64,000 nt of DNA from NCBI GenBank assembly GCA_900469955.1, contig UBYX01000003.1:248001-312000 (forward strand), in the 5' to 3' direction. This DNA is from Hyphomicrobiales bacterium (GTDB taxonomy: Bacteria > Pseudomonadota > Alphaproteobacteria > Rhizobiales > Rhizobiaceae). The position numbers and the translations under genes were made by a program. The notes beneath the pieces were generated by a model that was not told where the DNA came from, searched no databases, and saw only the letters and a program-made list of their open reading frames with translations. This document shows, in pieces, positions 1 to 17,789 of the stretch (the first letter of the stretch is position 1; each line of letters opens with the position of its first letter).

Positions 1-840
1 GACCTCGCCGACCATTTCAAGCACATTATCCAAGAGCCCGAGGATCGCGTTGCTTTCCGGCGTGCGCAATGTCATGCGGATTTCGGCCGAACCCGGCGTG
101 ATACCGAAGACCGGCTTGCCCATCTGCACGCTTGTCAACGTGACGCGGCGAAAGCCTTTCGCAACCACGTCACCCGCCTCGAAGGTCTTGATGTTATCGA
201 TGATGCGTGCAACCGCCGTGGCCGGCGATATGCCGGTTTCCGGCATTGATGCGTGCGCTGTCTTGCCGGTAAGTTCGATGCACAGGCCCATCGAAGCGCA
301 GGTGATCTGGCCGGCCGCGACAGCGATATGGGCCAGCGGCAGGCCGGGCATGTTATGAATCGCGAAGGCGTAGTCGGGCGTGATCTCTGCGAATTTCGGA
401 TCGGCGAGCACGGCTTCCGCGCCATGCGCCGTCTCTTCCGCCGGCTGGAACAGCAGCACCGCCCTGCCCCGTGCCGGCCGTTGCCGGGAAATATGCCTGG
501 CAACGGCGGCCATCATGGTCATATGTCCATCGTGCCCGCACATATGCGCCTTGCCATCGACTCGCGAGCGATATGGAAGATCCGAAATCTCATGGATCTG
601 CAAAGCGTCGAGTTCGCAGCGCAACAGGACCGTCGGTCCAGCTTCCGCCCCATTGTAGACCAGTGCAACGCCATGCCCTCCCAGGCCGGTCAAGACTTGG
701 TCGGGCCGGGTGTCGGCAAGGAAGGAGACCACCTCACGTGCGGTCTCGGCTTCCTCACCGGAGAGTTCCGGAAACTGGTGTAACTTGTGCCGCCATGCCA
801 CGAGATGGGCAAACTCGGCATTGTCGAAAGGCGATTTCAT
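1..840 (-). CDS. M20-family amidohydrolase (partial, C-terminus outside window)
   Basis: Reading frame open at the left edge, so only about 280 N-terminal residues are visible. The N-terminal HQFPELSGEE stretch, the metal-site motif with C101 and H103 (HMCGHDGH) and the QPAEE motif (E135, E136) are typical of M20D amidohydrolases, which hydrolyse N-acyl amino acids or hippurate-like amides in the cytoplasm. ATG at 838-840 is chosen because the family's N-terminus begins close to it; the ribosome site is weak (AGAGAG about 12 bases upstream). It lies 67 bases downstream of a peptide-type solute-binding gene, so it is probably the third gene of a minus-strand uptake/hydrolysis operon continuing to the left. 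The exact amide substrate cannot be read from the sequence. Confidence 0.9.
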   Translation of the reverse strand, partial: MKSPFDNAEFAHLVAWRHKLHQFPELSGEEAETAREVVSFLADTRPDQVLTGLGGHGVALVYNGAEAGPTVLLRCELDALQIHEISDLPYRSRVDGKAHMCGHDGHMTMMAAVARHISRQRPARGRAVLLFQPAEETAHGAEAVLADPKFAEITPDYAFAIHNMPGLPLAHIAVAAGQITCASMGLCIELTGKTAHASMPETGISPATAVARIIDNIKTFEAGDVVAKGFRRVTLTSVQMGKPVFGITPGSAEIRMTLRTPESNAILGLLDNVLEMVGEV

Positions 841-907
841 GTTGAGCGCGAACTCTCTGTCGTTGTGGCCGGGGCCACTTGGCGTCAATGGGAACGGTGG
901 ACCGCCC

Positions 908-2482
908 CTAAGCGAAATGGGCCTTGCCGAAATTGGCATTGACCCCGGTAGAAGTGGTGATGAGATCCTTCAGGCGGTTGTCGTAGATGGTCGGATACTT
1001 CTGCTCGCACAGCCAGATCACTGGAGCCTCCTCCACGAGAAGCTTCTGAACCTCGGTATATAAAGCCTGGCGTTTTTCCTGGTTCAGCTCCACCGCCGCC
1101 GCTTCGAATAGCTCGTCAACCTTGTGGTTGGAATAGCCCGACGTGTTGGAGAACATCACGCCCTTGCGGATATTCGAGGAGATATAGGTGCGCGCCACCC
1201 CGAGCGCCGGGTCACCGTTCTGGTAGAGCTGGTTGCCGCTGATGTCGAAATCGCCGTTGCTGACGGCAGAGACCCAGCCGGCGAGATCATTGCTTTGCAA
1301 TTCGATCTTGATCCCTGCGGCGCCACAGGCCTGTCGGACATATTCGGCGATCCGGGTCCATGTGTCGCCGGCCGGAACCATAGTGAATTTCAGCGCGACA
1401 CGAATGCCGCTTGCGTCGGGCTTCAGGCCCATTTCGTCGAGCAGGGCCGCCGCCTTTTCGACGGAAGGCTCGTAAGTCTTCACATCGCCATCATAGAAGC
1501 GCATCGATGATGCGATTGGGCCGGTCGCCGCGTTGGCGAGGCCGAACATGATGCGGTCGCGCACGAAATTCCGGTCGATCAGGTGCATCAGCGCCTGCCG
1601 GAAGCGCTTGTCGTTCATGGGTGGGCGGCGGCAATTGAGTTCCACCCAAAGCATTGGCGAGAAATACTCATAACCGTCGGTTGTTATTTCCAAATGCTCC
1701 AGATCGGCCAGGCGCGCAGCATCGAACGGCTCGATATCCTGCCACTGCGCAAGCTGCGTTTCGCCCTGTTCCAGGGAGACCGAGCGCGAAGCGGCATCGG
1801 GAATGACGCGATAGAAGATTTCCTTCAGCTTCGGTTGTCCCTCACGGTAGTAGCCGTCGAATGCTGCAAGGCGGATATGCGAACCCTTGACCCATTCGGC
1901 GAGACGAAACGGGCCCGTGCCAATCGGCTCCTGCTCGGCTCCGGCTTTGCGGAAATCCTTTCCTTCCAGAAGATGGCGCGGCACCATGGGCGCCGACGCC
2001 GTCTCAAAAGCCATTAGGAAGGCCGGGAAAGGCTTTTTCAGCTTGAATACCACCGTGTGATCATCGGGCGCGGAGATTTCTTCGCAGCGATTGAACACAT
2101 CACGGGCCCGCGGATGAACTTCCGGCAACATTGTTTTGCAAGAGAAGACCACATCCGCTGAAGTGAAAGGCTGGCCGTCATGCCATTTGGCATTCTTGGC
2201 AAGATGGAACGTGTAGGTCAGCCCGTCCTCAGAAACGTCCCACCTGTCAGCAAGCAGGGGCTGCGGCGTCAGATCCTTGGCGTAGGAAAGCAGACCCTCA
2301 TACATCTTGCCGGCGACGACGCCCGTCGGCGTCTGCTGGTTTAGACCCAGATTGAGGATCGGCGGCTCCGGATTGACGATCGACGTCAGCGTGTCGACGC
2401 CCTCCTTAGCATAGGCATGCTCCGAAAAAATGGTGGAGCCGAACATAGCAGCCATCATCACATTGAATTCCCGCCGATTCAT
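908..2482 (-). CDS. ABC transporter solute-binding protein, peptide/nickel family (SBP_bac_5)
   Basis: Periplasmic binding protein of about 524 residues with the normal family length. The mature part starts near VDTLTSIVNPEPP and contains the family pattern LADRWDVSEDGLTYTF followed by KWHDGQPF and ADVVFS. The start ATG at 2480-2482 is preferred over an in-frame start 36 bases upstream because it has a GGAGAG ribosome site 5 bases away and gives an N-terminus MNRREF followed by a hydrophobic export segment. It is flanked by a second, unrelated type of binding protein (76 bases upstream) and an M20 amidohydrolase (downstream). No permease or ATPase for either binding protein is in the window, so they would have to lie to the left. 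Substrate unknown. Confidence 0.92.
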   Translation of the reverse strand: MNRREFNVMMAAMFGSTIFSEHAYAKEGVDTLTSIVNPEPPILNLGLNQQTPTGVVAGKMYEGLLSYAKDLTPQPLLADRWDVSEDGLTYTFHLAKNAKWHDGQPFTSADVVFSCKTMLPEVHPRARDVFNRCEEISAPDDHTVVFKLKKPFPAFLMAFETASAPMVPRHLLEGKDFRKAGAEQEPIGTGPFRLAEWVKGSHIRLAAFDGYYREGQPKLKEIFYRVIPDAASRSVSLEQGETQLAQWQDIEPFDAARLADLEHLEITTDGYEYFSPMLWVELNCRRPPMNDKRFRQALMHLIDRNFVRDRIMFGLANAATGPIASSMRFYDGDVKTYEPSVEKAAALLDEMGLKPDASGIRVALKFTMVPAGDTWTRIAEYVRQACGAAGIKIELQSNDLAGWVSAVSNGDFDISGNQLYQNGDPALGVARTYISSNIRKGVMFSNTSGYSNHKVDELFEAAAVELNQEKRQALYTEVQKLLVEEAPVIWLCEQKYPTIYDNRLKDLITTSTGVNANFGKAHFA

Positions 2483-2558
2483 CAATCTCTCCTTTGCGAT
2501 TGGCGCTGTTCGATGCACGGCCCTCCTCCCTCGAAGGCGCCGAGGTCGTTCGACCGAG

Positions 2559-3794
2559 CTATTTTTTCGTGATCAGTGAGCAGGCGGATTTTTCAAGTGG
2601 CTGGAACGCATGTTCGGCGCTGACGGTCGCGAGCAGCTTGTAATAGTCCCACGGCTTCTTCGATTCCTCGGGCTTCTTGACCTCAAACAGGTACATGTCA
2701 TGCACCACGCGACCGTCTTGGCGGATGGCACCCTTGTAGAAGAGGTCCTGCACTGGCAGTTCACGCATCTTCGCCATCACTGCCTTGGTTTCGTCTGTGC
2801 CGGCAGCTTCGATTGCTTTGAGATAATGCAGGACCGAAGAATAGGTGCCGGTCTGCAGCATGTTGGGCATCGCATTCACTTTTTCCGCAAAGCGCGTCGA
2901 CCAGGTCCGAGTTTCCTCGTTCATGTCCCAGTAGGACGCCTCCGTGATAGTGAGGCCCTGGGCCTCAGTGAGGCCAACGCCATGCACGTCGTTGATGAAA
3001 GCCGCCAGCGTCGCAAGCTTTTGTCCGCCCTGGGTCAGGCCGAACTGTGCCGCCTGCTTGATCGAATTGATTGTGTCGCCGCCGGCATTGGCAAGTGCCA
3101 CAACCTTGGCGCCTGAGCTTTGGGCGGTCAAAAGCGCAGAGGCGAAGTCACTAGTCCCGACGGGAAGCCTGACATTACCCACGACCTTGCCGCCCTGCGC
3201 AGCCACGACTTCGCCTGTATCCTTTTCCAGACCGTGACCAAAAGCGTAGTCGGCGGTCACGAAATACCAGCTGTCGAAGCCGGCGCCGACCAGTGCCTGA
3301 CCGGTGCTGTGGGCGATGGCATAGGTATCATAGGCCCAATGGAGCACGTAAGGCCCGCATAGGTCGTTGGTGATGCGTACCGATCCCGGCGAACTCAGCG
3401 CAATGATCTTGTTCTTCTGCTTGGCAACCTCGATCACCGCCAGCGCCGGAGATGACGACGCAACATCAAGAATGGCATCGACCTTTTCCTCATCCAGCCA
3501 TTTGCGGGCAATGGATGCTGCGATGTCGGGCTTGTTCTGGTGGTCGGCGAAGATCACTTCCACGGTTTTGCCGAGTACCTTGCCGCCGAACTCCTCCACC
3601 GCCATCTGTGCTGCGGTGACCGCGCCCTTGCCGGTGATGTCTGCATAGACCCCGGTCATGTCCTCGATCAGCCCAATGCGGACTATATCGTCGCTGATTG
3701 CCGCATCTTGCGCAATCGCCAGCGCTGCCGGAATGATCGATGTCGCCGCCAGGGTTGCCAGATACAAGCCCGCGGTTGTCTCGCGTTTCCTCAT
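2559..3794 (-). CDS. ABC transporter solute-binding protein, branched-chain amino acid type (Peripla_BP_6)
   Basis: About 411 residues, type I periplasmic fold. A signal peptide ends near AIAQDA, and the mature protein starts with the IVRIGLIEDMTGVYADITG pattern seen in LivK-like proteins. ATG at 3792-3794 is preferred because AAGGGA lies 8 bases upstream and the signal peptide then starts at MRKRETT; the longer frame back to 3893 has no signal-like start. First gene of the minus-strand operon, transcribed away from the regulator at 4189. LivK-type proteins bind branched amino acids but also many aromatic or small organic acids, so the ligand here is open. Two binding proteins of different fold in one operon suggest two ligands or components of two transporters. 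Confidence 0.92.
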   Translation of the reverse strand: MRKRETTAGLYLATLAATSIIPAALAIAQDAAISDDIVRIGLIEDMTGVYADITGKGAVTAAQMAVEEFGGKVLGKTVEVIFADHQNKPDIAASIARKWLDEEKVDAILDVASSSPALAVIEVAKQKNKIIALSSPGSVRITNDLCGPYVLHWAYDTYAIAHSTGQALVGAGFDSWYFVTADYAFGHGLEKDTGEVVAAQGGKVVGNVRLPVGTSDFASALLTAQSSGAKVVALANAGGDTINSIKQAAQFGLTQGGQKLATLAAFINDVHGVGLTEAQGLTITEASYWDMNEETRTWSTRFAEKVNAMPNMLQTGTYSSVLHYLKAIEAAGTDETKAVMAKMRELPVQDLFYKGAIRQDGRVVHDMYLFEVKKPEESKKPWDYYKLLATVSAEHAFQPLEKSACSLITKK

Positions 3795-4073
3795 TTGTCG
3801 TTCCCTTATTATCTTTATTTGACGCATCTCCCGAATGCGCTGACGACACATTAGGTAAGGCATGGATGTGTCTTCAATGTCTTTGAGCCACACTTCGCGA
3901 GACGCTTAATGTTGCCTGACGACAGAAGAGGACGGAAAATGCCGAGGCCACGGGTTGGCGTCATAGATGGTGAGGCTTCAAAGCAACGTCATCCCGACGT
4001 TGGCCGCCACCTTACGAGTGGTGCGCCATAGGGTCTCGGTGCTTTTTCTTGCGGGGTCCCAAACGCGGAGCCC

Positions 4074-4092
4074 AATGTGCTTGATCCACACG
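4074..4092. promoter_or_regulatory. Putative operator copy 1 (TGTG-N7-CACA)
   Basis: AATGTG, seven bases, CACACG. Same half-sites and same 7-base spacer as the dyads centred near 4115 and 6216. Centre-to-centre distance to copy 2 is 32 bases, about three helical turns. It lies in the intergenic region between the minus-strand binding-protein operon and the regulator gene. Seen in sequence; binding by the regulator at 4189 is inference. Confidence 0.55.
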
Positions 4093-4104
4093 GACAGCGC
4101 CGCC

Positions 4105-4125
4105 TAATGTGAACAATACACATTA
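4105..4125. promoter_or_regulatory. Putative operator copy 2, perfect dyad TAATGTG-N7-CACATTA
   Basis: A perfect 7-base inverted repeat with a 7-base spacer, 64 bases upstream of the regulator start. Together with copy 1 it could control both the regulator and the divergent binding-protein operon. The 294-base stretch 3895-4188 holds nothing else that I recognise. Confidence 0.65.
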
Positions 4126-4188
4126 TCAGTTGCGCATAAACGTGGCAGTTCGATTAATGCCATCATCGCGGTGAAACGGAGCTAGACC

Positions 4189-6141
4189 ATGTCGAACGAA
4201 GTCGGCGCCACGCCAATTGGACTGCGAGCCAACGGTGGTGCCGAGGCCGCGCACTACTACCGGCGCCTATTGGAGCTGCTCGGCAGCAATGCGCCGCTCT
4301 CGAGCTTCGAGCAATTGGCGGGCGGCGCAAAGACTACCCTTTGGGAAGACGGCTATGCGGAGGCGATCGGCGACGCCATCGCCACGGCGGTGCGATTGCG
4401 TGAGAATTTCGAACTCAAGCGCAAGCGCGAGGTGGAGCTCTCCGCGCTTTACGACACAGCGCGCGACCTGTCCGCCCTTCGCGACACGGATCAGATCCTG
4501 CAGGCAATCGTACGGCGCGCCCGGCAACTGGTCGGCAGCGATATTGCCTATCTCTCCGCCGCAGACGAGGAACATGGCGATTTCTACGTGCGCACGACAG
4601 AAGGCGTAATCTCCCAGGATTTCGGACGGATCCGGGTGCCCCGCAATATCGGCGTCTGTGGCAGTGTCGCCCGGACACGGCGACCCTTTTACTCAAGCAA
4701 TTACTCTGCGGACCGCAATTTCGACCACGACACCGGCATCGACCGGGCCATCAGCGGCGAAGGTATTATTTCCATTCTCGGAATTCCCCTGGAACTCGAA
4801 GCGTATGTCATGGGCGTGCTCTTCGTCGGCGACCGCTATGTACGGACCTATACGCCGCAGGAACGATCGGTACTTTCCTCGCTCGGCACATTCGCCGCAC
4901 TGGCGATCGAAAATGCCAGGCTGCTCGAAGAAGCGCAGCGGGCCCTGTTCCTGGCGAAAGATGCCAATTCCGCTCTGCGCGCAAAAGCCGACGACATCGA
5001 ACAGGCTGCCGTCGCCCACGAACAACTCACAGAACTGATCGCCCGCGGTGGAACGCTCGACGACCTTGTGAACCGGGTCTCGAATTTGTTGAAGGGGCAG
5101 GTCGGCGTCGTCGACGAAAGCAGGAACCTGATATCAGGCGAGCTTTCTGGCGATCTCGCCGACGAGGAGCTGGCGCGCGCCATACGCGAGAGCGATCGTC
5201 TCGGCAGATCCGTCGCTTTTCCAGCCGATGACGGCAGCACCACCGTCGTTGCCGCCGTAATGGGCGGCTCGACCCGCTGGGGTGCCTTGCTCCTCACACG
5301 CAGCAGGCCGCTATCCCCATCCGAAACCCGCACCCTGGAACGTAGCGCGATCGTGACCGGCATCGTGTTGCTTTCGCTGGACCGGATCGCGCAAATTGCC
5401 CACCGCAATGTCGTCGATACGGTTTCGGCACTGCTGCGCGGCACCAGCGATCCGTTTTCGCCCGAAAGCGCACGGCGCCTGCCGCCAGGCATCTCCCTGT
5501 CCTGGCCGATCACGCTGATGCTGGTGGAACTGGAGACGATTACATCGGCGCAGGCCTCCTCGGCGCTGCGCTCCACTCTGGCTGGCCGCGACACGATTTT
5601 CGCCGAGTTCAACGGCGATCTGGCGATCGTTACCAATGCACCTGGACCGGAGCGTCTAGCACGACGGATTTCGGAGAAGCTGGAGGAGGCTTTCGGCCAG
5701 ACATACACTATCGTCATTTCCGATCCGATACCGGCCGTGGACAAGGTCCCCGCCGAATACGAGGCCCTGCGTCGCTGCGTAAATCTCATCCGCGGTCTCG
5801 ATCAGCGAGGCCGGGTAACGTTCGAAAAGAGTTTCTCGATCTACGCGCTACTCTTCCAAAACAAGGCGGAAGACACGATCGCCTCTTTCCTCCGCACCTC
5901 CGTCGGCACACTCGTCGAGCAGGATGAGAAGCGCAAAAGCCAGCTGGCAGTCACGTTGCTGACTTATCTCGACACGGGGCGCAGCGTGCAGAAGGCCGCC
6001 GAGATACTTGGTGTCCATGTCAATACCATGCGCCAGCGTCTCGATGCGATTTCCCAGATCAACCCGGACTGGTCTGATCCCTGCAAAAGCCTGGAAGTGC
6101 ATATCGCCCTGCGCCTGCACATGCTGCGGGAGAGGATTTGA
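4189..6141 (+). CDS. GAF-domain, PucR/CdaR-type transcriptional regulator
   Basis: 650 residues. Residues about 98-245 read as a GAF sensor domain (LVGSDIAYLSAADEE, then LGIPLELE and LGTFAALAIENARLLEEA). The last about 60 residues are the PucR C-terminal helix-turn-helix (LLTYLDTGRSVQKAAEILGV, then HVNTMRQRLD). A coiled-coil-like linker near residues 240-290 connects the two. ATG 4189 follows a CGGAGC-like ribosome site. Regulators of this build usually activate or repress catabolic operons in response to a small ligand. It sits between the divergent binding-protein operon and mvaA, and repeated TGTG-N7-CACA dyads occur on both sides, so it is the likely regulator of both. The ligand (perhaps mevalonate or a CoA ester) is a guess. 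Confidence 0.9.
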   Translation: MSNEVGATPIGLRANGGAEAAHYYRRLLELLGSNAPLSSFEQLAGGAKTTLWEDGYAEAIGDAIATAVRLRENFELKRKREVELSALYDTARDLSALRDTDQILQAIVRRARQLVGSDIAYLSAADEEHGDFYVRTTEGVISQDFGRIRVPRNIGVCGSVARTRRPFYSSNYSADRNFDHDTGIDRAISGEGIISILGIPLELEAYVMGVLFVGDRYVRTYTPQERSVLSSLGTFAALAIENARLLEEAQRALFLAKDANSALRAKADDIEQAAVAHEQLTELIARGGTLDDLVNRVSNLLKGQVGVVDESRNLISGELSGDLADEELARAIRESDRLGRSVAFPADDGSTTVVAAVMGGSTRWGALLLTRSRPLSPSETRTLERSAIVTGIVLLSLDRIAQIAHRNVVDTVSALLRGTSDPFSPESARRLPPGISLSWPITLMLVELETITSAQASSALRSTLAGRDTIFAEFNGDLAIVTNAPGPERLARRISEKLEEAFGQTYTIVISDPIPAVDKVPAEYEALRRCVNLIRGLDQRGRVTFEKSFSIYALLFQNKAEDTIASFLRTSVGTLVEQDEKRKSQLAVTLLTYLDTGRSVQKAAEILGVHVNTMRQRLDAISQINPDWSDPCKSLEVHIALRLHMLRERI

Positions 6142-6185
6142 ACACGGCAATGGCGCCGATTTGTCACGCCAGGAACTATAGCAAC

Positions 6186-6225
6186 TTGACAGAGATCCAG
6201 GAGTTCAGTGTGCATCACGCACATT
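6186..6225 (+). promoter_or_regulatory. mvaA promoter: TTGACA -35 and overlapping operator copy 3
   Basis: TTGACA at 6186-6191 is a consensus -35. Where a -10 would fall, 17-18 bases further on, lies the dyad AGTGTG-N7-CACATT (6207-6225), the third copy of the TGTG-N7-CACA motif. An operator at the -10 position suggests repression, but no good -10 hexamer is visible, which could also mean activator dependence. A second looser dyad, CCCACA (6242-6247) and TGTGGG (6268-6273), lies just before the mvaA start at 6285. Confidence 0.5.
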
Positions 6226-6284
6226 GTCTCGCATGATGATGCCCACATAGGTTCTACAAAAATACATTGTGGGAGATCTGACTC

Positions 6285-7556
6285 ATGCCGGTAAACAGCC
6301 GCGTTCCAGGCTTTTATAAGCTTTCTCCATCGGAACGTTTCCAGACGATCGTCAGGCTCAGCGACTTGCCGGAGCATGAAATCGCAAATCTGGCCTCCGC
6401 CGATGCAGACATGCTGATGATCGCTGACCGCATGATCGAAAACGCCGTCGGAACCCTCTCCGTACCACTCGGCATCGCGGCCAACTTCACCATCAACGGG
6501 CGCGATTACCTGATCCCGATGGCAACCGAGGAGCCGTCGGTTGTTGCCGCCGCCAGTAACATGGCTTCGGTCGCTCGCATTCACGGCGGTTTCCATACGT
6601 CAAGCGATCAGCCGATTATGATTTCGCAGATCCAGCTGGTGGGTGCGAAAGATCCACAGGCCGCTCGCCTTCGGCTCTATGAACACCGCCGGGATCTACT
6701 CGATCTTGCCAATGAGCAGGATCCGTTGCTGGTCAAGCTCGGTGGCGGCGCCAAGGATATCGAGGTGCGCATTGTCGAGGCAATGGACAAGACCTATGTG
6801 GTCCTGCATCTGATCGTTGACGTTCGCGATGCCATGGGTGCCAACGCGGTCAACACGATGGCGGAGGCGCTGGCGCCTCTGGTATCGGAGATCGGCGGTG
6901 GGCGCGTGCGTCTGCGCATCCTTTCCAACAAGGCCGATCTGAGGCTCGCTCGTGTCCGCGCTATTTACGATGCCGAGGCGCTTGGTGGTCCGGACGTGGT
7001 CGATGGCATAATAGACGCCTACGCATTTGCTGCCGCCGATCCCTATCGCGCCGCCACCCACAACAAGGGCATCATGAACGGCATCACGGCCGTGGTGCTG
7101 GCTACTGGTAACGACACCCGTGCAGTCGAGGCCGGCGCACATTCCCATGCGGCCGCGGCCGGCCGCTACACCTCGCTCTCTCACTATGAAAAGAATGAAG
7201 CCGGCAACCTCGTCGCCACTATGGAGGTTCCGATGGCCGTCGGGCTTGTCGGCGGTGCCACCAAAACCCATCCGGTGGCCCAGGCCGCCGTCAAGCTACT
7301 CGGGGTTAAGAGCGCCCAGGAATTGGCCGAGGTCATTGTCGCTGTTGGACTTTCCCAAAACACAGGCGCCTTGCGCGCTCTGGCGGCGGAAGGCATCCAG
7401 AAGGGCCATATGTCACTCCACGCCCGCAACATCGCTGTCGCGGCCGGGGCGACTGCAAACGAAATCGAAGACGTCGTATCTCGCCTGAGACGGGAGGGTC
7501 ATGTTCGCATGGACAAGGCCGAAGCTATTCTGGCCGAGCTCAGACAGTCCCGTTGA
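6285..7556 (+). CDS. mvaA: Hydroxymethylglutaryl-CoA reductase, degradative class II
   Basis: 423 residues, the usual class II length. It interconverts mevalonate plus CoA and HMG-CoA with NAD(H); in bacteria lacking the mevalonate pathway it works in the oxidative direction. Counterparts of the Pseudomonas mevalonii catalytic residues are visible: E83 in TEEPSVVA, K261 in HNKGIMNGI, D277 in GND, and H375 in KGHMSLHARN. N265 and the DAMGAN motif are also present. ATG 6285 has GGGAG 8-9 bases upstream. First gene of a plus-strand operon with CoA-transferase, enoyl-CoA hydratase and HMG-CoA lyase genes, which points to mevalonate breakdown rather than isoprenoid synthesis. A terminator-like hairpin follows the gene. 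Confidence 0.95.
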   Translation: MPVNSRVPGFYKLSPSERFQTIVRLSDLPEHEIANLASADADMLMIADRMIENAVGTLSVPLGIAANFTINGRDYLIPMATEEPSVVAAASNMASVARIHGGFHTSSDQPIMISQIQLVGAKDPQAARLRLYEHRRDLLDLANEQDPLLVKLGGGAKDIEVRIVEAMDKTYVVLHLIVDVRDAMGANAVNTMAEALAPLVSEIGGGRVRLRILSNKADLRLARVRAIYDAEALGGPDVVDGIIDAYAFAAADPYRAATHNKGIMNGITAVVLATGNDTRAVEAGAHSHAAAAGRYTSLSHYEKNEAGNLVATMEVPMAVGLVGGATKTHPVAQAAVKLLGVKSAQELAEVIVAVGLSQNTGALRALAAEGIQKGHMSLHARNIAVAAGATANEIEDVVSRLRREGHVRMDKAEAILAELRQSR

Positions 7557-7604
7557 TCGGGAGGCCGATTGCGGCCATACGAAGTCGGGCATGACGATGG
7601 TAGC

Positions 7605-7640
7605 AAAACCCGCTCTCGGCCAGGCTCAGAGTGGGTTTTT
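7605..7640 (+). terminator. Terminator-like hairpin inside the mva operon
   Basis: AAAACCCGCTCT (7605-7616) pairs with AGAGTGGGTTTT (7628-7639) with one G-T wobble, an 11-base loop, and a T-run ending at 7640. It lies in the 144-base gap between mvaA and the CoA-transferase gene, so it could partly terminate transcription and lower expression of the three downstream genes. Confidence 0.6.
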
Positions 7641-7700
7641 ATCGAGCCGCAATGGCGCTGATGGTGAATGAGAAGCACATTTCCGGAGTTGGAAGGACAA

Positions 7701-8939
7701 ATGGCAGAAAAAACTGACGAGAGCTGGAAAAGCCGCCGGCCCGGTCCCCTGGCGGGGGTTACCGTTCTGGATATTACCCGCGTCGTCGCCGGCCCGTTCT
7801 GCTCAATGCTTCTGGCCGACCTCGGCGCCACGGTCATCAAGGTGGAACACCCTGATGAGCCCGACTATGCCCGCACGTTCCCGCCCTTCGTTAATTCGGA
7901 CGAGGAGCAATTGAGCGCCTTCTTCACCCAGTTCAACCGCAACAAGCTCGGCATCACGCTTAATCTGAAATCACCGGAAGGCAAGAAATTGCTGCGCAAG
8001 CTGGTGGCCAAGGTCGACATTCTCGTCGAGAATTTCCGCCCGGGTACGATGGAAAAGCTCGGCCTCGGCTTTGATACGTTGAGCGCCGTCAATCCGAAGC
8101 TCGTCTATACCGGCATCAGCGGCTTTGGCCGGACCGGCCCCAACGCCTCAAAGCCCGCATATGACAACACTGGACAGGCGGCGGGCGGGCTCTGGTCGAT
8201 GAACGGTTATCCTGATCGCCCGCCGGTGCGGGTCGGCACTATCATCGGTGATCTCTCCGCGTCGCTCTACGCGGCCATCGGCACCCTCGCCGCCCTGCGT
8301 GAGGCGGAACTTACCGGCAAAGGCCAGGTGGTAGATGTGTCGCAGCAAGATTCCGTGCTGACGCTGACCGAAAACGCGGTCGTGCGTTATACCGCACAAA
8401 AAGAAGTTGCCTCGCCGCTCGGCAACGATCACCCCTTCGTTCGTCCTTACGGCCAGTTTCCCTGCAAGGACGGCTACGTCTTCTTCGGCGGCTATACCGA
8501 TAAATTCTGGGCCATCACCTGCAACCTGTTCGGCGAACCGGACAAGGCGACCGATCCGGAAATCGACACGATGGAAAAACGCTTCGATCCCGTGGTGGCG
8601 GAAAACAAGGTCAAGCCGCTGCTTGAGCGCTGGTTCTCCGCCTACACAAAAGCGGAACTGGAAGAGATGGCCGGCGACAAGGTGCCACTCAGCGCCATCA
8701 AGACGGTTGCGGAAGTGGTAGAGGACCCGCATATCGCCGCCCGCAACATGATCGTCGACGTGCCAGTCGGAGCCAAGATGATCGGCATGTTCGGACTGCC
8801 AATCAAGCTGTCCGGTCGAAAGGAGGCGCCGAATGAGAAAGCGCCGGCTCCCGGTGAACACAATCGCTTGGTGTTCTCTAGACTTGCCGACATTGCCGAA
8901 GACGAGCTGGAAAAACTCAAGACGGCCGGAGCAATCTGA
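7701..8939 (+). CDS. CaiB/BaiF (family III) CoA-transferase
   Basis: 412 residues. The N-terminal PGPLAGVTVLDITRVVAGPF and the MLLADLGATVIKVEHP pattern are diagnostic for family III CoA-transferases, which move CoA between carboxylic acids through an aspartyl-CoA intermediate. D155 in AYDNTGQA is the expected catalytic aspartate. ATG 7701 is chosen over an in-frame ATG at 7668 because GGAAGG lies just upstream. The stop overlaps the next start by one base (TGATG). With mvaA and mvaB around it, plausible substrates are mevalonate, anhydromevalonate, 3-hydroxy-3-methylglutarate or 3-methylglutaconate; the human relative SUGCT uses glutarate and 3-hydroxy-3-methylglutarate. The choice is not decided by sequence. 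Confidence 0.92.
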   Translation: MAEKTDESWKSRRPGPLAGVTVLDITRVVAGPFCSMLLADLGATVIKVEHPDEPDYARTFPPFVNSDEEQLSAFFTQFNRNKLGITLNLKSPEGKKLLRKLVAKVDILVENFRPGTMEKLGLGFDTLSAVNPKLVYTGISGFGRTGPNASKPAYDNTGQAAGGLWSMNGYPDRPPVRVGTIIGDLSASLYAAIGTLAALREAELTGKGQVVDVSQQDSVLTLTENAVVRYTAQKEVASPLGNDHPFVRPYGQFPCKDGYVFFGGYTDKFWAITCNLFGEPDKATDPEIDTMEKRFDPVVAENKVKPLLERWFSAYTKAELEEMAGDKVPLSAIKTVAEVVEDPHIAARNMIVDVPVGAKMIGMFGLPIKLSGRKEAPNEKAPAPGEHNRLVFSRLADIAEDELEKLKTAGAI

Positions 8940-9697
8940 TGTCGGTCAATTACCAGAAGAACGACGCCGTCGCGACCATCCGCATCGATCGCCCTGAAAA
9001 ACTGAACGCGCTTACTCTTTCCATGTATGACGACCTCGGCCGAGCCTTCGCCGAGGCCGGCCTCGATGACGAGGTCAACGTGGTGGTACTGACAAGCACC
9101 GGCGAGCGTGCCTTCTGCGTAGGCGCTGATCTGACGGAATCGATACCTGCCCTCGCGGAAGGCCGCTTTGATATCTCTCATTGGGATCCGGCGCACCTAA
9201 AGATCGAGGGCTTCTACAAGCCCGTGGTCAGCGCCATCAAGGGACTGTGCATTGGCGGCGGGTTCGAGATCATGTTGGCCAGCGACATCCGCATCGCCGC
9301 GCTCGACGCGCAGTTCCAGCTGCCCGAAGCGCATCACGGCTTCGTGCCCGCCGGCGGTACGTTGGTTCGGCTAGTGCGCCAGATAGGCTATGCCCATGCC
9401 ATGGAAATCATGCTGACGGCTGAACGTTTTTCCGCCGGCGAGATGTTGGCGCGCGGGGTCGTTAATCGCATAGTTGATGCGGCAGAGGTGGAGCCAGCCG
9501 CCCTGGAACTTGCCGGCCGCATTGCCAAGCTCAGCTCGGGTGCGGTGCAAACGATCAAGGAGGCCGCCCTCACCCTGCAGCATCTCCCGCTCAAAGAGGC
9601 GTTTCAGCGTGAAGCCGCCCTTGGCCAACGCACTTTCGAAAGCGAGGATGCGCGCCGTGGGCTCGCTGCCTTCGCCAAACGCGGCAAAACGGAGTGA
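8939..9697 (+). CDS. Enoyl-CoA hydratase/isomerase family protein
   Basis: 252 residues, crotonase fold. Both catalytic glutamates of true hydratases are present at the right spacing: E110 in GGGFE and E130 in FQLPE, 20 residues apart as in rat mitochondrial hydratase (E144/E164). The oxyanion segments FCVGADL and KGLCIGGG are intact. Active hydration of a 2-enoyl-CoA is therefore expected. Overlaps the CoA-transferase stop by one base and the mvaB start by four bases, so the three are translationally coupled. In this setting likely substrates are 3-methylglutaconyl-CoA (hydrated to HMG-CoA) or anhydromevalonyl-CoA (hydrated to mevalonyl-CoA, the reverse of fungal SidH). Confidence 0.92.
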   Translation: MSVNYQKNDAVATIRIDRPEKLNALTLSMYDDLGRAFAEAGLDDEVNVVVLTSTGERAFCVGADLTESIPALAEGRFDISHWDPAHLKIEGFYKPVVSAIKGLCIGGGFEIMLASDIRIAALDAQFQLPEAHHGFVPAGGTLVRLVRQIGYAHAMEIMLTAERFSAGEMLARGVVNRIVDAAEVEPAALELAGRIAKLSSGAVQTIKEAALTLQHLPLKEAFQREAALGQRTFESEDARRGLAAFAKRGKTE

Positions 9698-10551
9698 CCG
9701 GCTTGCCAACAGCAACGATCGTCGAAGTTGGTCCGCGCGACGGGCTTCAGAATGAAAAGCAGATCGTACCGACACCACAAAAGCTCGAGTTGATCCGGCT
9801 TCTGCGCGCAGCCGGGTTCACCAGGCTGGAGGTTACAGCCTTCGTCTCGCCAAAATGGGTTCCGCAAATGGGCGATCACGAAACGGTGCTCCGGGGGACG
9901 GCACCTAGCGAGGGCCTGATCCGATCGGTGCTGGTTCCGAACGAGCGCGGCGCGCTTTTAGCTCTTGCCATCGGCGTCGAAGAGCTTGCCGTATTCACCA
10001 GTGCTTCGGAGACATTCGCGAAGAAGAACATCAATTGCTCGATCGCCGAAAGCCTGCAGCGCTTCAGGCCGGTTGCCAGTCTTGCAGCCCGGCATGGCGT
10101 GCGGCTCCGCGGCTATGTGTCCTGCAGCGTCGAATGTCCTTACGAGGGCCAGATCGCGCCGGAGGCAGCGCTTCATGTGGCGCTGGCCCTGGCCGATCTC
10201 GGCTGTGGTGAAATATCCCTTGCCGATACAATCGGGCGCGCACGATCCGAGCAGGTAAACGCACTAATGCGGATCGCCACCTCGGCACTACCAACGGAAA
10301 AGCTGGCTTGCCATTTTCACGACACGCACGGCCATGCCCTCGACAACGTCGATGCCGCCTTGGTCAATGGTATCCGCATTTTCGACAGCGCCGTGGCCGG
10401 GCTCGGTGGCTGCCCCTATGCGCCAGGCGCTGCTGGCAACCTCAGCACGATCTCGCTCGCAACATTTTTGGAAAAGGCCGGTTATTCGACTGGTTTGAAC
10501 TCCGCACGCCTCAAATGCGTCGAAGACTTCGCCCGCCAGTTGGTTGCATAG
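9694..10551 (+). CDS. mvaB: Hydroxymethylglutaryl-CoA lyase
   Basis: 285 residues of the HMGL-like TIM-barrel family. It splits HMG-CoA into acetyl-CoA and acetoacetate. Diagnostic segments are EVGPRDGLQNE near the N-terminus, FHDTHGHALDN with metal-binding histidines, and the active-site-loop signature GLGGCPYAPGAAGN with the catalytic cysteine. The start is GTG at 9694, overlapping the hydratase stop as GTGA. Last gene of the operon; with mvaA it makes a complete mevalonate to acetyl-CoA plus acetoacetate route. No acetoacetate-activating gene is in the window. Confidence 0.95.
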   Translation: MTGLPTATIVEVGPRDGLQNEKQIVPTPQKLELIRLLRAAGFTRLEVTAFVSPKWVPQMGDHETVLRGTAPSEGLIRSVLVPNERGALLALAIGVEELAVFTSASETFAKKNINCSIAESLQRFRPVASLAARHGVRLRGYVSCSVECPYEGQIAPEAALHVALALADLGCGEISLADTIGRARSEQVNALMRIATSALPTEKLACHFHDTHGHALDNVDAALVNGIRIFDSAVAGLGGCPYAPGAAGNLSTISLATFLEKAGYSTGLNSARLKCVEDFARQLVA

Positions 10552-10772: not shown

Positions 10773-12740
10773 TCAACGCCTCTTGCCTAACAAGAACAAC
10801 AGGCAGGGAGCGCCTATGAGAGCTGAGACCAGCCCCGCCGGGATCTGATAGGGAGCCGCGATGGTGCGGCCGATAAAATCTGCGGCAGTCATCAGTCCTC
10901 CCCCGATCAGCGCGGCGCCGATCATCTGCGGCATAGCGCGTGTGAGACGCAATTCTCGGGCGAAATGGGGCCCCATGAGGCCGACAAAGGATAGCGGACC
11001 AACCGTCAATGTCGCGGCTGCCGTCATGAGCCCAGCAAGGCCGAACAACGCAAGTCGAGATTTCGCCAACGGTATTCCGACCGCAGCCGAAGGAGCCGGT
11101 CCGAGCGGCAGGATATCCAGCCAACGCCGCGTGGCCAAGGCTATCGCGACCAATGCGCCGCCGATTGCCACTTCCCACACGGCGATCGTGCCATCTACGA
11201 GATAGGTGGATCCACTCATCCAGCGCATCAGGAGGGCCGCCCTAGGGTCGCCCGTCGAACTCAGCACCCCGACGACGGCATCGACCATCGCACTGAGCGC
11301 GATGCCGGCAAGCAGAACCCGCTCAGGGGCAAAAATGGAGCGCCGCGACCCCAGAAGAATGATGGCGAGAACTGAAATCGCGCCGCCGACAGCGAAGGCA
11401 AATTGGCCGGAAAATCCCGGCGCAACCGCGAAAAGAGCGATGGCAACGCCAAAGGTCGCACCGGCACTGATGCCGAGAACTTCAGGACTCGCCATTTCGT
11501 TTTCGGTCAATCTTTGCAGGATTACGCCGGCAACTCCAAGCATTGCGCCGGAAGCAAGTGCCGCGAACACCTTCGGTGCACGGATCGCAAGGATGTCGCC
11601 GAAGAATTCGCCGGGAAGGACAGCCCAGCTGCCGCCAGGTCCACGCCCGACAACGAGGCTGATCGTTACGAGAACCAAGAGACCCATCAATGCGATAATG
11701 ACCGGAACCTTGGCGTCCCAACGGTGCGCCCTCTGAGGCGACGCCGCCTGCTGAATGCGGGGACGGACTTTCAACCGCGGCAAGAGCGCCAGAAGCAGCG
11801 GCGAGCCAAAAATGGCGGTGACTGCACCCGTCGGCAGGAAATTGTCGAGCCCGCCTGCCGCAAGCTGCAGGACGGAATCGGCGAAAAAGAGAAGGGCCGC
11901 GCCGATCAGCGGAGACCAAACGATCAACTGAACTGGCCGCCGCGCTCCGGAAAGCCGCGCGAGTGTCGGCGCAACCAACCCAATGAAGCCGATCACCCCG
12001 ACGGCACTGGTGACGACGGCAGCAAGCGTCACCGCACAAGCAATGACTATGACGCGAAGGCGAGCGAGCCTCACACCGAGTGCGGCCGAACCGGCTTCCC
12101 CTAAATCGAGCAGCGACAGCGGTCTCATCACCAATGCACAGACCATGGCGACGATTGCCATTTTCCAGGTGAGCGACAAGGGTATGGTCCAGCTCTGCTG
12201 CGCGAGCGAACCGGCACCCCAGATGAACAAGCTCGCCAGATATCGCTGGTTCAAATAGATGAGGATGGCCGCCAGTCCCCCGCACCAGAGGCTTAGTACG
12301 AGCCCTGAGAGGACGAGTGAATAGGGAGAGAAGCCGCGGCGCGCGCCAAAACCTATGACGATTGCAGCCGCAACCACGCTTCCAAGCAGGGCGACGACGT
12401 CCCGGCCTACACCAAGAAGACCCGGCACGAAAAGCGATATCACCACCAGCGCAAGATTGGCCCCGGCTGAGACGCCCAGCGTGGTCGGATCGGCCAGCGG
12501 GTTCCTTAGGATTTGCTGAAACAGGGCGCCGGACAACGCGAGCGCCGCGCCGGCAAGCAACGCTGTCGCTAGCCGAGGCAGCGTCGAATAGTAGAGCACC
12601 ATGCGCTGAGTGTCGTAGCCCTGACCCGTCGTACCGGAAAGCACCGGCTCGACGAGGAGCCAGGCCCCTATACCGCCGGCGCACAACAGTGCGAGAAGGA
12701 CCAACGCGGGCCCGAGGTTATCGCTGCGAGTGGGGGTCAT
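10773..12740 (-). CDS. fhuB: Siderophore ABC transporter permease, fused double FecCD domain (FhuB-like)
   Basis: 655 residues, about twice a normal FecCD permease, as in E. coli FhuB. Both halves carry the family pattern (LATALLAGAALALSGALFQQ and LRNPLADP in the first; VFAALASGAMLGVAGVILQR and TENEMASPEVLGISAGA in the second), with about ten membrane segments each. ATG 12738-12740 is preferred because it overlaps the fhuD-like stop (ATGA); upstream codons of the longer frame lie within that gene. Fused permeases are characteristic of hydroxamate-siderophore transporters. Last gene of the iron operon, convergent with mvaB. Confidence 0.93.
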   Translation of the reverse strand: MTPTRSDNLGPALVLLALLCAGGIGAWLLVEPVLSGTTGQGYDTQRMVLYYSTLPRLATALLAGAALALSGALFQQILRNPLADPTTLGVSAGANLALVVISLFVPGLLGVGRDVVALLGSVVAAAIVIGFGARRGFSPYSLVLSGLVLSLWCGGLAAILIYLNQRYLASLFIWGAGSLAQQSWTIPLSLTWKMAIVAMVCALVMRPLSLLDLGEAGSAALGVRLARLRVIVIACAVTLAAVVTSAVGVIGFIGLVAPTLARLSGARRPVQLIVWSPLIGAALLFFADSVLQLAAGGLDNFLPTGAVTAIFGSPLLLALLPRLKVRPRIQQAASPQRAHRWDAKVPVIIALMGLLVLVTISLVVGRGPGGSWAVLPGEFFGDILAIRAPKVFAALASGAMLGVAGVILQRLTENEMASPEVLGISAGATFGVAIALFAVAPGFSGQFAFAVGGAISVLAIILLGSRRSIFAPERVLLAGIALSAMVDAVVGVLSSTGDPRAALLMRWMSGSTYLVDGTIAVWEVAIGGALVAIALATRRWLDILPLGPAPSAAVGIPLAKSRLALFGLAGLMTAAATLTVGPLSFVGLMGPHFARELRLTRAMPQMIGAALIGGGLMTAADFIGRTIAAPYQIPAGLVSALIGAPCLLFLLGKRR

Positions 12741-13651
12741 GCGTCTCGTTCCAGGAGTTCGGTCACCAGACGGGCAAAGCGCATGGCCTCGTTGAGCATG
12801 CCGAACATCAGGGCCGGCGCGACGACGGATAGATGGCCTGGCCGCGAGAACGGAAGCGCCTGCCAAAGGGGACTTTCCATGAGTTTCGGCAGCACGTCGG
12901 GAGGAATGGGGTCAAAGGCCAGCAGCCGTGCGTCCGGATCGGTAATACTGGAAAGCTCTTCGATGCCGATTGTCTCGAAACCCCAATAGTTCGATTGCCG
13001 TGTCCAGGCATTGCGCACGCCGATGCGCTCAAGCGCGTTGTGAAACAGGCCCGGGGCGGAATAGATGCGGACGTGACGAGCATCCATGAAGCTAACGAGA
13101 GCGACCGGTGGAATAATCCGGCCCGCAAGCCGTTGGCGGCATTCATGGAAAAATGCGTCGGATCGAGCCACGAAGAGTTCCGCTTCCGTCTCACGGCCGA
13201 GTTCGGCCGCCAGTTTGCGCGTCGCTGCTATCGCCGACGGGAGAACAGGACCGGATTCGGGAGTGAAGATTTCAAGACGTAGAACTTTGGCGACCGGCCG
13301 AAGCTTGGGCAGGAGCTCGTCAAGATAAGGTGTCGTCAGGATGACGTCCGGTTTTAGTTGGATGAGGGTCTCAAAATCGACTTCATAGGAACTTCCGATA
13401 TCGACAACCGATCCCGGCATGGTCGGCTCGACCACCCATCGACCCCAGTCGGCGAGGTCCGATATCCCGACGGGAGTCAATCCAAGCGACAAAAGCGTGG
13501 ATGCCAATCCGTAATCGAGGCTTACGACCCTCTGTCCGGCAACCTGCGCATACAACGGCGTCGGGATGAAAGCGGATGCGGCCGCGGTATAGCGTAGAAA
13601 TGTGCGTCGTGAAATTTCCATCCGCGGTCGGGTCTCAGCAGGCATAGGCAA
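12737..13651 (-). CDS. fhuD: Siderophore-binding periplasmic protein (FhuD-like)
   Basis: About 304 residues of the TroA/FhuD helical-backbone class. The N-terminus carries a twin-arginine-type signal (SRRTFLRY then a hydrophobic segment ending LYAQ), as in many FhuD proteins. The mature part has RVVSLDYGLASTLLSLGLTP and KPDVILTTPY, typical of the family. Starts at 13651, 13645 and 13621 are all possible; none has a strong ribosome site and all but the last overlap the fhuC-like gene. The stop overlaps the permease start by four bases. It would carry a ferric hydroxamate from the outer-membrane receptor to the permease. Confidence 0.88.
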   Translation of the reverse strand: MPMPAETRPRMEISRRTFLRYTAAASAFIPTPLYAQVAGQRVVSLDYGLASTLLSLGLTPVGISDLADWGRWVVEPTMPGSVVDIGSSYEVDFETLIQLKPDVILTTPYLDELLPKLRPVAKVLRLEIFTPESGPVLPSAIAATRKLAAELGRETEAELFVARSDAFFHECRQRLAGRIIPPVALVSFMDARHVRIYSAPGLFHNALERIGVRNAWTRQSNYWGFETIGIEELSSITDPDARLLAFDPIPPDVLPKLMESPLWQALPFSRPGHLSVVAPALMFGMLNEAMRFARLVTELLERDA

Positions 13652-14447
13652 GCGGATGCGCCAGGGTCGGAACGGAGATTACGTCCATGTCGATCCCGTA
13701 AATAGCGTTGAGCGTTTTCGGCACCAAAATCTCTTTCGGCGTTCCGCTTGCTACCACCCGCCCGCCTTTAAGGGCATGGATCCGATCGCAGAAGCGTGCC
13801 GCCATGTTGATGTCGTGAAGAACGATGACCACGCTTCGGCCGCCTTCGTGGGCCAACCGCCGCACCAGAGAAAGAACCTCGACCTGATGCGCGATATCCA
13901 GCGCCGCGGTCGGCTCGTCGAGGAGGAGGCAGTGCGCATCCTGAGCGATCAGCATGGCGATCCACGCACGCTGCCGCTCGCCGCCGGAAAGAGTGCCCAC
14001 CACGCGGTCGGCAAATGTCTCGATATGCGTGACCGATATGGCGGCTTCGACCTTTTGCCTGTCGATCTCTGAGAAACGACCAAGCGCACCGTGCCACGGA
14101 TAGCGGCCGCAACCGACGAGCTCGCGGATCGTCATCTCTGAGCCCGTGCTCAAATCCTGCGGCAAATAAGCGACGGACTGCGCGAAGTCGCGGCCTTGAT
14201 ACTGCTTGAGATCGCGGCCACCATAGGCGGCAGTTCCGGACGTCGGGGTCAGTTGCCGCGCCAGGATCTTCAAGAGGCTGGATTTGCCCGAACCGTTATG
14301 GCCAACCAGGGCAACCACCTCTCCCGCTGGAAATTCAAGGCTGACATCCGATAAAATAGCATTTCCGTCGATTGAAAGCCCGACCCCGTTGGCCTCAAAG
14401 ACTTTCGTTGTTTCGAGCGCGTTCTGCGCGAGTTGTACCGAGGTCAC
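13635..14447 (-). CDS. fhuC: Siderophore ABC transporter ATPase (FhuC-like)
   Basis: 270 residues. Walker A is GHNGSGKSS, the signature is LSGGERQR, Walker B is LLLDEP, and the H-loop is in VLHDINMAARF, all in FhuC/FecE order. GTG at 14445-14447 is chosen because a full AGGAGGTGA ribosome site lies immediately upstream. The frame extends to 14630, but that part overlaps the esterase gene and lacks family similarity. It powers import through the FhuB-like permease. Its end overlaps the fhuD-like start region by up to 17 bases. Confidence 0.93.
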   Translation of the reverse strand: MTSVQLAQNALETTKVFEANGVGLSIDGNAILSDVSLEFPAGEVVALVGHNGSGKSSLLKILARQLTPTSGTAAYGGRDLKQYQGRDFAQSVAYLPQDLSTGSEMTIRELVGCGRYPWHGALGRFSEIDRQKVEAAISVTHIETFADRVVGTLSGGERQRAWIAMLIAQDAHCLLLDEPTAALDIAHQVEVLSLVRRLAHEGGRSVVIVLHDINMAARFCDRIHALKGGRVVASGTPKEILVPKTLNAIYGIDMDVISVPTLAHPLAYAC

Positions 14448-14499
14448 GTCACCTCCTGTTCGAGTCTCGAATAATAATGCCGGGAGCTGCGGGTGTCCG

Positions 14500-15375
14500 T
14501 CATGCCTCCCGCGCTCCAACGCTTTCAAAAGCGATGCCCACGGCGCGATTGACGGCCGGTCCGAGCACAGACATGTGAGTTTGCCCTGCAAAGAGTTCGA
14601 ACTGCGCACGGATTCCGGTCTCGGGGCCATTCAGCCGAGTTGCCATTTCTCGCGCCAAGGCGACAGTCTGCTCGGTCTTCCTCTTGTCAAGACGAGATGC
14701 AGCATCCTCGTTGCGGTACTGGAAGGGTGCAAGCTTATCCCCCTCATACTCGCCGGCCGACAGATGCAAGAATGCTGGAGGGCCCGCGATACGTTTGCGA
14801 CTAGCCTCATTGTTCAGGATTTCCCTATCTTCCCAATAGATTGTTGGACTGGCAGCAATCCAATTGCTGAAAAGCTCCGGGCGTTTGAAAAGGGCATAGA
14901 GGGTAAAGAGCCCGCCGAAGGAATGTCCAAAAAGCGATCGGCGCGTCGCATTTGTCCGAACCATCTCGTCAAGCCGCGGGATTAGTTGGTTTTCGATAAA
15001 GTCGAGCAGTTCGCCTGTCCCGCCGATGCGAACAGGTGGCCCACCTTCAAAATACGGCGGATAGGACTTGATTGGCGGAGGCCCCAAGTCCCAGGCCCTG
15101 CGCAATGCATTATAGGGTTCGTCAGAGGGGTAGCCGATCGCGGCAATGACGCCCCAGTCGACATTCGTCCCGGTTGGGTAAGGCGCTTGTGTCACCGTGC
15201 TGGCGAACGCAAAAGGAAAGGTCGCATTGCCATCGGTCATGACCAAAAGAGGCCACCCGGCGGCAGGTGGCTCCCCTTTTGGCATGAACAGGAAGATGCG
15301 ATAGGGTTCCCCACCAGCAATCGGCGCTAGGTCAAAATAAACAGTCCCGGGCAACGCATAGGCTTTTTCAGTCAT
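14500..15375 (-). CDS. Putative siderophore esterase (esterase D / IroE-like family)
   Basis: 291 residues, alpha/beta hydrolase of the PF00756 type found in Fes, IroE, BesA and fungal siderophore esterases. The nucleophile elbow is GHSFGG with S152; H267 in GQTHMS is the likely catalytic histidine. No signal peptide is visible, so hydrolysis should occur in the cytoplasm after uptake. ATG at 15373-15375 has GGAAAG just upstream. It sits between the receptor and the ATPase gene, 53 bases before fhuC. Ester-linked hydroxamates (fusarinine C, triacetylfusarinine C, coprogen) or trilactones would be suitable substrates; the hydroxamate-type permease favours the former. Confidence 0.88.
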   Translation of the reverse strand: MTEKAYALPGTVYFDLAPIAGGEPYRIFLFMPKGEPPAAGWPLLVMTDGNATFPFAFASTVTQAPYPTGTNVDWGVIAAIGYPSDEPYNALRRAWDLGPPPIKSYPPYFEGGPPVRIGGTGELLDFIENQLIPRLDEMVRTNATRRSLFGHSFGGLFTLYALFKRPELFSNWIAASPTIYWEDREILNNEASRKRIAGPPAFLHLSAGEYEGDKLAPFQYRNEDAASRLDKRKTEQTVALAREMATRLNGPETGIRAQFELFAGQTHMSVLGPAVNRAVGIAFESVGAREA

Positions 15376-15490
15376 GATCTTTCCGCTGGAATTATCGGCC
15401 GACTGTCGCCTCGCTTATAGCCGAGGCTGGCGGATTAATGAGTTGCAGGACGATTATTTTCTAGATCTGTCGCCACGGACTTCACCACCG

Positions 15491-17620: not shown

Positions 17621-17754
17621 TGCCTGATCCTTTCGGCACGCGGCAAACTGGGATGAGTGATCGGAGGGATCACGAATGGGAAGGCGCCAAGAAAATGCGC
17701 TTAGCGAGGTGTCTCGCCGCTCGCTGCTATAAGAGCCAATGTAGGGCTGATCAA

Positions 17755-17769
17755 TGAAATATGATTTCA
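17755..17769 (-). promoter_or_regulatory. Iron-responsive operator (IRO box, RirA type)
   Basis: TGAAAT-ATG-ATTTCA, a perfect 6-base dyad that also fits the rhizobial TGA-N9-TCA iron-responsive operator recognised by RirA. It lies upstream of the TonB receptor, where repression under iron-rich conditions would be expected. A second hairpin, CCTCAT/ATGAGG, follows at 17772-17789. Confidence 0.7.
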
Positions 17770-17789
17770 ATCCTCATGTTTTTATGAGG

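Follow-up and report, generated by a model that had tools for sequence, protein, structure and literature searches.

Tandem TGTG-N7-CACA dyads as predicted operators of a GAF-bearing PucR-type regulator at a mevalonate/HMG-CoA locus

Comparison of a Rhizobium-like locus with its orthologues points to a regulon not described before, whose regulator is of a known but little-studied kind; the regulon is well supported as real. Its predicted operator unit is a tandem pair of TGTG-N7-CACA dyads lying exactly 32 bp apart, start to start, and such pairs were found before livK, before the gene of the regulator itself (REG) and before mvaA (Table 1). The pairs are probably the operators of a locally acting PucR-type activator, with REG as the predicted binder. 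The sites, their pairing and spacing, their conservation, their genome-wide specificity and the promoter geometry were computed. A single regulon of regulator, mva operon and amidohydrolase operon had been proposed in the initial annotation of this DNA, and is supported by the retention of the motif in orthologous loci and the concentration of its paired form at the locus.

The analysed DNA (the window, 64 kb) lies on contig 29 (bases 248001-312000) of a genome of 5.79 Mb. Downstream of the DppA-like gene of the livK-dpp-M20 operon lie genes for an M20 amidohydrolase (window 1-940 and beyond), DppBC, DppDF and a PNPOx/ferredoxin-reductase fusion.

Table 1. Genes, dyads and predicted promoter elements of the locus, in window coordinates
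Feature	Position	Strand	Basis
SBP_bac_5 protein (DppA-like)	908..2485	-	
livK, Peripla_BP_6 substrate-binding protein, gene 1 of livK-dpp-M20 operon	2559..3794	-	PF13458, E 2.5e-108
Predicted livK -10, TAATGT, 18 bp after -35	3848..3853	-	TAnnnT conserved
Predicted livK -35, TTGAAG, directly past proximal dyad	3872..3877	-	TTG conserved
Proximal dyad of livK/dpp promoter, TGTG-GCTCAAA-GACA	3878..3892	-	Pair search; profile (PWM)
Distal dyad of livK/dpp promoter, TGTC-GTCAGGC-AACA	3910..3924	-	Genome-wide pair search (pair = 3 mismatches)
Distal dyad before REG, TGTG-CTTGATC-CACA, perfect arms	4076..4090	+	
Proximal dyad before REG, TGTG-AACAATA-CACA, perfect arms, extended TAATGTG/CACATTA	4108..4122	+	
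REG, GAF - GGDEF-like (GGDEF_2) - HTH_30 regulator, 650 aa	4189..6141	+	Pfam
Distal dyad before mvaA, TATA-GCAACTT-GACA, degenerate	6177..6191	+	Pair search
Proximal dyad before mvaA, TGTG-CATCACG-CACA	6209..6223	+	Exact match; pair search; PWM
Predicted mvaA -35, TTGTCT	6224..6229	+	TTG conserved after dyad
Predicted mvaA -10, TAGGTT	6248..6253	+	Sole TAnnnT in 40 nt after dyad
mvaA, class II HMG-CoA reductase	6285..7556	+	PF00368, E 2.1e-104
CoA transferase family III, enoyl-CoA hydratase, HMG-CoA lyase-like	7668..10551	+	Pfam

Single dyads and tandem pairs

Exact TGTG-N7-CACA occurs in the window only at 4076-4090, 4108-4122 and 6209-6223, the three places at which it had initially been annotated, against a chance expectation of 0.62. 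All three sites are intergenic and spread over 2.15 kb. The two in the divergent gap are offset by 32 bases, as had been reported; the identical 7-base spacer claimed for all three proved correct in length and incorrect in sequence (CTTGATC, AACAATA and CATCACG).

A genome search for the single motif, which had been suggested as a check, revealed 23 exact places versus 9 for the reversed control (∼2.5 times commoner). The motif is not unique to the locus. Because 20 of these places lie elsewhere, MarR operators among them, the single-motif count was rejected as proof of a regulon. At one location (L017:10239-10300, corresponding to C78:216238-216299 of the same genome), two TTATGTG-N7-CACAT-type dyads 47 bp apart (C78:216238 and 216285) lie in the gap separating an FAD monooxygenase gene from that of a MarR regulator; the core motif is the same and the regulator family unrelated.

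Dyad pairs 32 bp apart with at most three mismatches were present at five places in the 5.79-Mb genome, three of them at this locus (3878-3924 before livK, 4076-4122 before REG and 6177-6223 before mvaA), and at three places genome-wide for the reversed control. An independent-base model predicts 18 such pairs, above both the 5 found and the 3 of the reversed control, and weight was placed on the control and on location. The initial list of sites therefore held the full REG pair and half of the mvaA pair, but missed the weak dyad at 6177-6191 and the whole pair at 3878-3924. The distal mvaA dyad is weak in this genome, with two arm mismatches in TATA and one in GACA, and has perfect TGTG/CACA arms in L068-L070.

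A position weight matrix trained only on loci of other genera (Mesorhizobium/Aquamicrobium type, L068-L072) ranked the three window pairs first, at 30.2, 29.7 and 10.6 bits, with the livK pair at the top. The next independent place in the window scored 2.4, and the best score in a further 199 kb of the same genome was 7.3. Among near-matches in 13 orthologous loci, which share descent so that counts across loci are not independent, 22 pairs had a spacing of 32 bp, and no other spacing between 16 and 60 gave more than 6. When all palindromic 4-mer dyads with spacers of 0-20 were counted in 20 orthologous intergenic regions, TGTG-N7-CACA came out on top, being present in 11 of the 20, and CACA-N17-TGTG was third; in 300 shuffles the highest count reached by a dyad was 4. 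The probability that the dyads arose by chance is negligible: three single sites were reached in 2 of 100 window shuffles, but for the paired form chance is excluded by the pair search, the spacing histogram, the leave-out matrix and the unbiased dyad count.

The resemblance of TGTG...CACA to the CRP half-site raises the alternative that the dyads belong to a global CRP/FNR-type regulator (TGTGA-N6-TCACA-like sites) and that the link to REG is accidental, in keeping with the genomic excess of exact single sites over the reversed pattern. The spacing, however, is one base short, with N7 rather than N8 between TGTG and CACA in the three window sites and an N7 dyad at the top of the unbiased count, and only one of the three sites has an A following TGTG. 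Many places would be expected for a global regulator, whereas the 32-bp pair is confined to the locus and two scattered matches in 5.8 Mb, and pairs track the same gene set across genomes of different genera. We consider this alternative very improbable.

Conservation in orthologous loci

Alignment of the upstream regions of orthologous loci, as initially recommended, revealed the motif to be conserved there. In three Rhizobium-type genomes, the dyad arms were identical in 38 of 48 columns, compared with 176 of 489 in the rest of the gaps. The livK proximal dyad was conserved in L066-L070, and at dpp in L108 and L109, and the mvaA proximal dyad occupied the same place, -73 to -78 from the ATG, in nine loci.

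The pairs follow their genes through rearrangements. The hmgL-caiB-ech genes of L068-L073, instead of lying downstream of mvaA, are oriented divergently from REG; the pair sits in this divergent gap, where it would serve hmgL. Where livK stands away from REG (L071 and L072), it has retained its own site or pair. In two further genomes (G842 and G843) the dpp-M20 operon lies ∼13 kb from REG with its own pair directly upstream, the conserved pair outside the locus (G842:C3:12217 and G843:C3:139371) being the dpp operon promoter. In L068 (2515-2780) only a 34-residue remnant of livK is left, but its operator pair and promoter are kept, and the dpp operon therefore now runs from the promoter of the remnant.

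In a group of loci with REG proteins of 57% identity (L077-L079) the pairs are degenerate but keep the 32-bp spacing; they stand before mvaA and livK, and in L077 also before REG. Extension of the motif to distant HTH_30 proteins was abandoned, as the 17-kb locus of L080 (31% identity, same recognition helix) is without a pair and no exact TGTG-N7-CACA site was found in the L039-L041 loci. Outside the locus in orthologue genomes, extra pair matches recurred at TGTTTATCAAAAACA, which resembles 23S rRNA, and at CATGTTCACAATCACGG; a pair match with two mismatches in G841:C141 was set aside as apparent chance.

Promoter geometry

The promoters of mvaA, livK and dpp were compared within the main clade (n = 20; 9 mvaA and 11 livK/dpp). 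In 20 of 20, TTG directly followed the proximal dyad and TAnnnT, the sole match to this pattern within 40 bases, stood 23-24 bases past the dyad. The offset was 23-24 in 9/9 mvaA promoters and 24 in 11/11 livK/dpp promoters. The TTG was invariant in 12 mvaA promoters, and at the same offset in all livK/dpp promoters compared; TAnnnT was missing in the 57%-identity group. The resulting arrangement, CACA-TTGnnn-17/18-TAnnnT in all 20 main-clade promoters, is that of a class II activator-dependent promoter, a geometry that fits activation rather than blocking. With the transcription start estimated at ∼7 bases after the predicted -10, the dyad centres would fall near -44 and -76.

The initial annotation had instead placed the mvaA dyad at the -10 position behind a TTGACA, a layout that would imply REG or another protein acting as a repressor covering the mvaA -10. 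TTGACA (6186-6191), a 17-bp gap and TGTGCA (6209-6214) can indeed be read as a promoter, and both activation and repression are reported for some members of the PucR type, such as PucR of B. subtilis (PMC7652997). This TTGACA, however, forms the distal dyad's right arm, and orthologues have TCGACA, GTGACA or GCCACA in its place, whereas the TTG(T/A) past the proximal dyad is conserved and TTG-N21/20-TAnnnT lies downstream in 20 of 20 promoters. Because the TTGACA is not conserved, the repressor layout was rejected; we regard it as quite improbable.

The proposal that the dyads at 4076-4122 are the operator of the amidohydrolase operon did not hold either. A separate pair, at 3878-3924, precedes that operon and is accompanied by a predicted -35 and -10, and the displaced operon of G842 and G843, ∼13 kb away, likewise has a pair directly upstream.

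In the same promoter comparison, no TTG-18-TAnnnT module was found behind the REG pair on the REG side, and autoregulation is therefore likely there. This pair is the strongest, and its place before REG fits autoregulation, of either sign. A conserved stretch, (A/T)(C/T)GTG(G/T)CAGT(N)C, was observed at window 4130-4170 and in the same place in L066-L070, 24 nt past the REG proximal dyad, which is the position of the predicted -10 at mvaA and livK.

The regulator and its predicted mode of action

REG has an HTH_30 domain at its C terminus (PF13556, E 6.1e-14, residues 587-643), preceded by a GGDEF-like domain (PF17853 GGDEF_2, E 5e-7, residues 426-530), an arrangement typical of most characterized PucR-type (HTH_30) regulators. 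The N-terminal domain PF07905 marks the PucR family in the strict sense. No match to it was found in REG (Pfam, E 0.001) and a GAF domain stands in its place; REG is therefore an HTH_30/GGDEF-like protein outside the strict PucR family. The best PDB matches of a model of its C terminus were the PucR-type structures 3onq and 9f80, at a marginal E of ∼0.02.

The GAF/PucR-type protein had been named as the simplest controller of the regulon, and this linked protein is the natural candidate. We infer that REG is the binder and an activator, and likewise its ligand and oligomeric state. Each predicted operator consists of two TGTG-N7-CACA dyads, the arms of a dyad being 11 bp, or one helical turn, apart; the dyads, at 32 bp, would be separated by three turns and therefore lie on the same face of the DNA. 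REG would bind as two cooperating dimers, the second three turns upstream. The proximal dyad abuts the predicted -35 (CACA-TTGnnn), where the activator would touch RNA polymerase, with a weak predicted -10 (TAnnnT) following at 18 bp, or 17 in a few genomes. The GAF domain may sense a mevalonate- or HMG-type ligand, and REG would then recruit RNA polymerase to the livK-dpp-M20 and mvaA-caiB-ech-hmgL operons.

An alternative is that the sites are bound by another regulator, encoded elsewhere but co-occurring with the pathway, REG being one of its targets. The recognition-helix residues are highly conserved, even in the 31%-identity protein whose locus lacks a pair; because this conservation extends across the wider family, beyond the carriers of the motif, the helix alone does not tie REG to TGTG-N7-CACA. 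A second, unlinked regulator is nevertheless highly unlikely, as REG is the only regulator retained beside the genes in all orthologous loci, despite changed gene order, and the mvaA loci of relatives lacking REG contain no pair with at most three mismatches, the only candidate there being one weak match with four (L104).

Comparison with known systems

The closest precedent for the predicted REG system is GabR of Corynebacterium glutamicum, a PucR-type activator of gabTDP whose binding site, immediately before the -35, comprises two inverted repeats that are both needed for strong binding (PMC7652997). Like REG, GabR is an HTH_30-type regulator encoded beside a catabolic operon; it activates that operon, as REG is predicted to do. 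Unlike REG, it lacks a GGDEF-like domain, and its 21-bp repeats are different in sequence (PMC7652997). The predicted REG system is distinguished by a GAF domain, the TGTG-N7-CACA dyad, the 32-bp pairing, at least three target promoters and a mevalonate/HMG pathway. In the same source, PutR and AdeR of B. subtilis are described as PucR-type activators of catabolic genes with palindromic operators of 17 and 24 bp (PMC7652997). They share with REG the GGDEF-like domain and, as predicted here, palindromic operators and activation of catabolic genes; they differ in ligands, operators and hosts, and in that PF07905 was not found in REG.

A literature search returned no paper with the TGTG-N7-CACA motif and none relevant to a PucR-type mevalonate regulator. 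Pseudomonas mevalonii, with MvaT and the mvaAB operon, likewise has inducible mevalonate catabolism that uses a class II HMG-CoA reductase and an HMG-CoA lyase, but the protein described there as the regulator is of another type than REG. We know of no TGTG pairs or HTH_30 protein in that system.

Operators of GAF-bearing HTH_30 regulators are almost undescribed. Here the operator, its pairing, its promoter position and the full target set could be read from comparison alone. The fixed 32-bp layout abutting the -35 predicts how this class contacts RNA polymerase, and the locus supplies a candidate mevalonate/HMG sensor.

Pathway context

Directly after the mva operon, a siderophore-uptake set was observed on the reverse strand (window 10773-17770), comprising a fused FecCD permease, FhuD-like and FhuC-like proteins, a PF00756 esterase and a TonB receptor. 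No REG pair was found in this set, and it was not beside the mva genes in the examined stretches of three orthologue genomes (L112-L114). The uptake set, together with the amidohydrolase, CoA transferase, hydratase and HMG-CoA enzymes, suggests use of the acyl arms of fungal siderophores. That the regulon as a whole serves salvage of fungal hydroxamate siderophores is a speculative extension that we think unlikely. Mevalonate or a relative, released from anhydromevalonyl or methylglutaconyl arms, would be sensed by REG, which would switch on import (livK, dpp), deacylation (M20 amidohydrolase) and the flavin/ferredoxin reductase, and the acyl arm would be burned by CoA transferase, hydratase, HMG-CoA reductase and lyase.

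The gap that separates mvaA from the CoA transferase gene contains a strong hairpin with a U run behind it, at 7605-7639 (region 7600-7650, minimum free energy -20.3 kcal/mol, z -2.7); the genes downstream may therefore be reached by only partial read-through. At the end of the dpp-M20 cluster, a fusion protein combines a PNPOx-like domain with a ferredoxin reductase and a 2Fe-2S ferredoxin (L018:4201-6384, reverse strand), and this fusion is kept in the same position in L108, L109 and L114.
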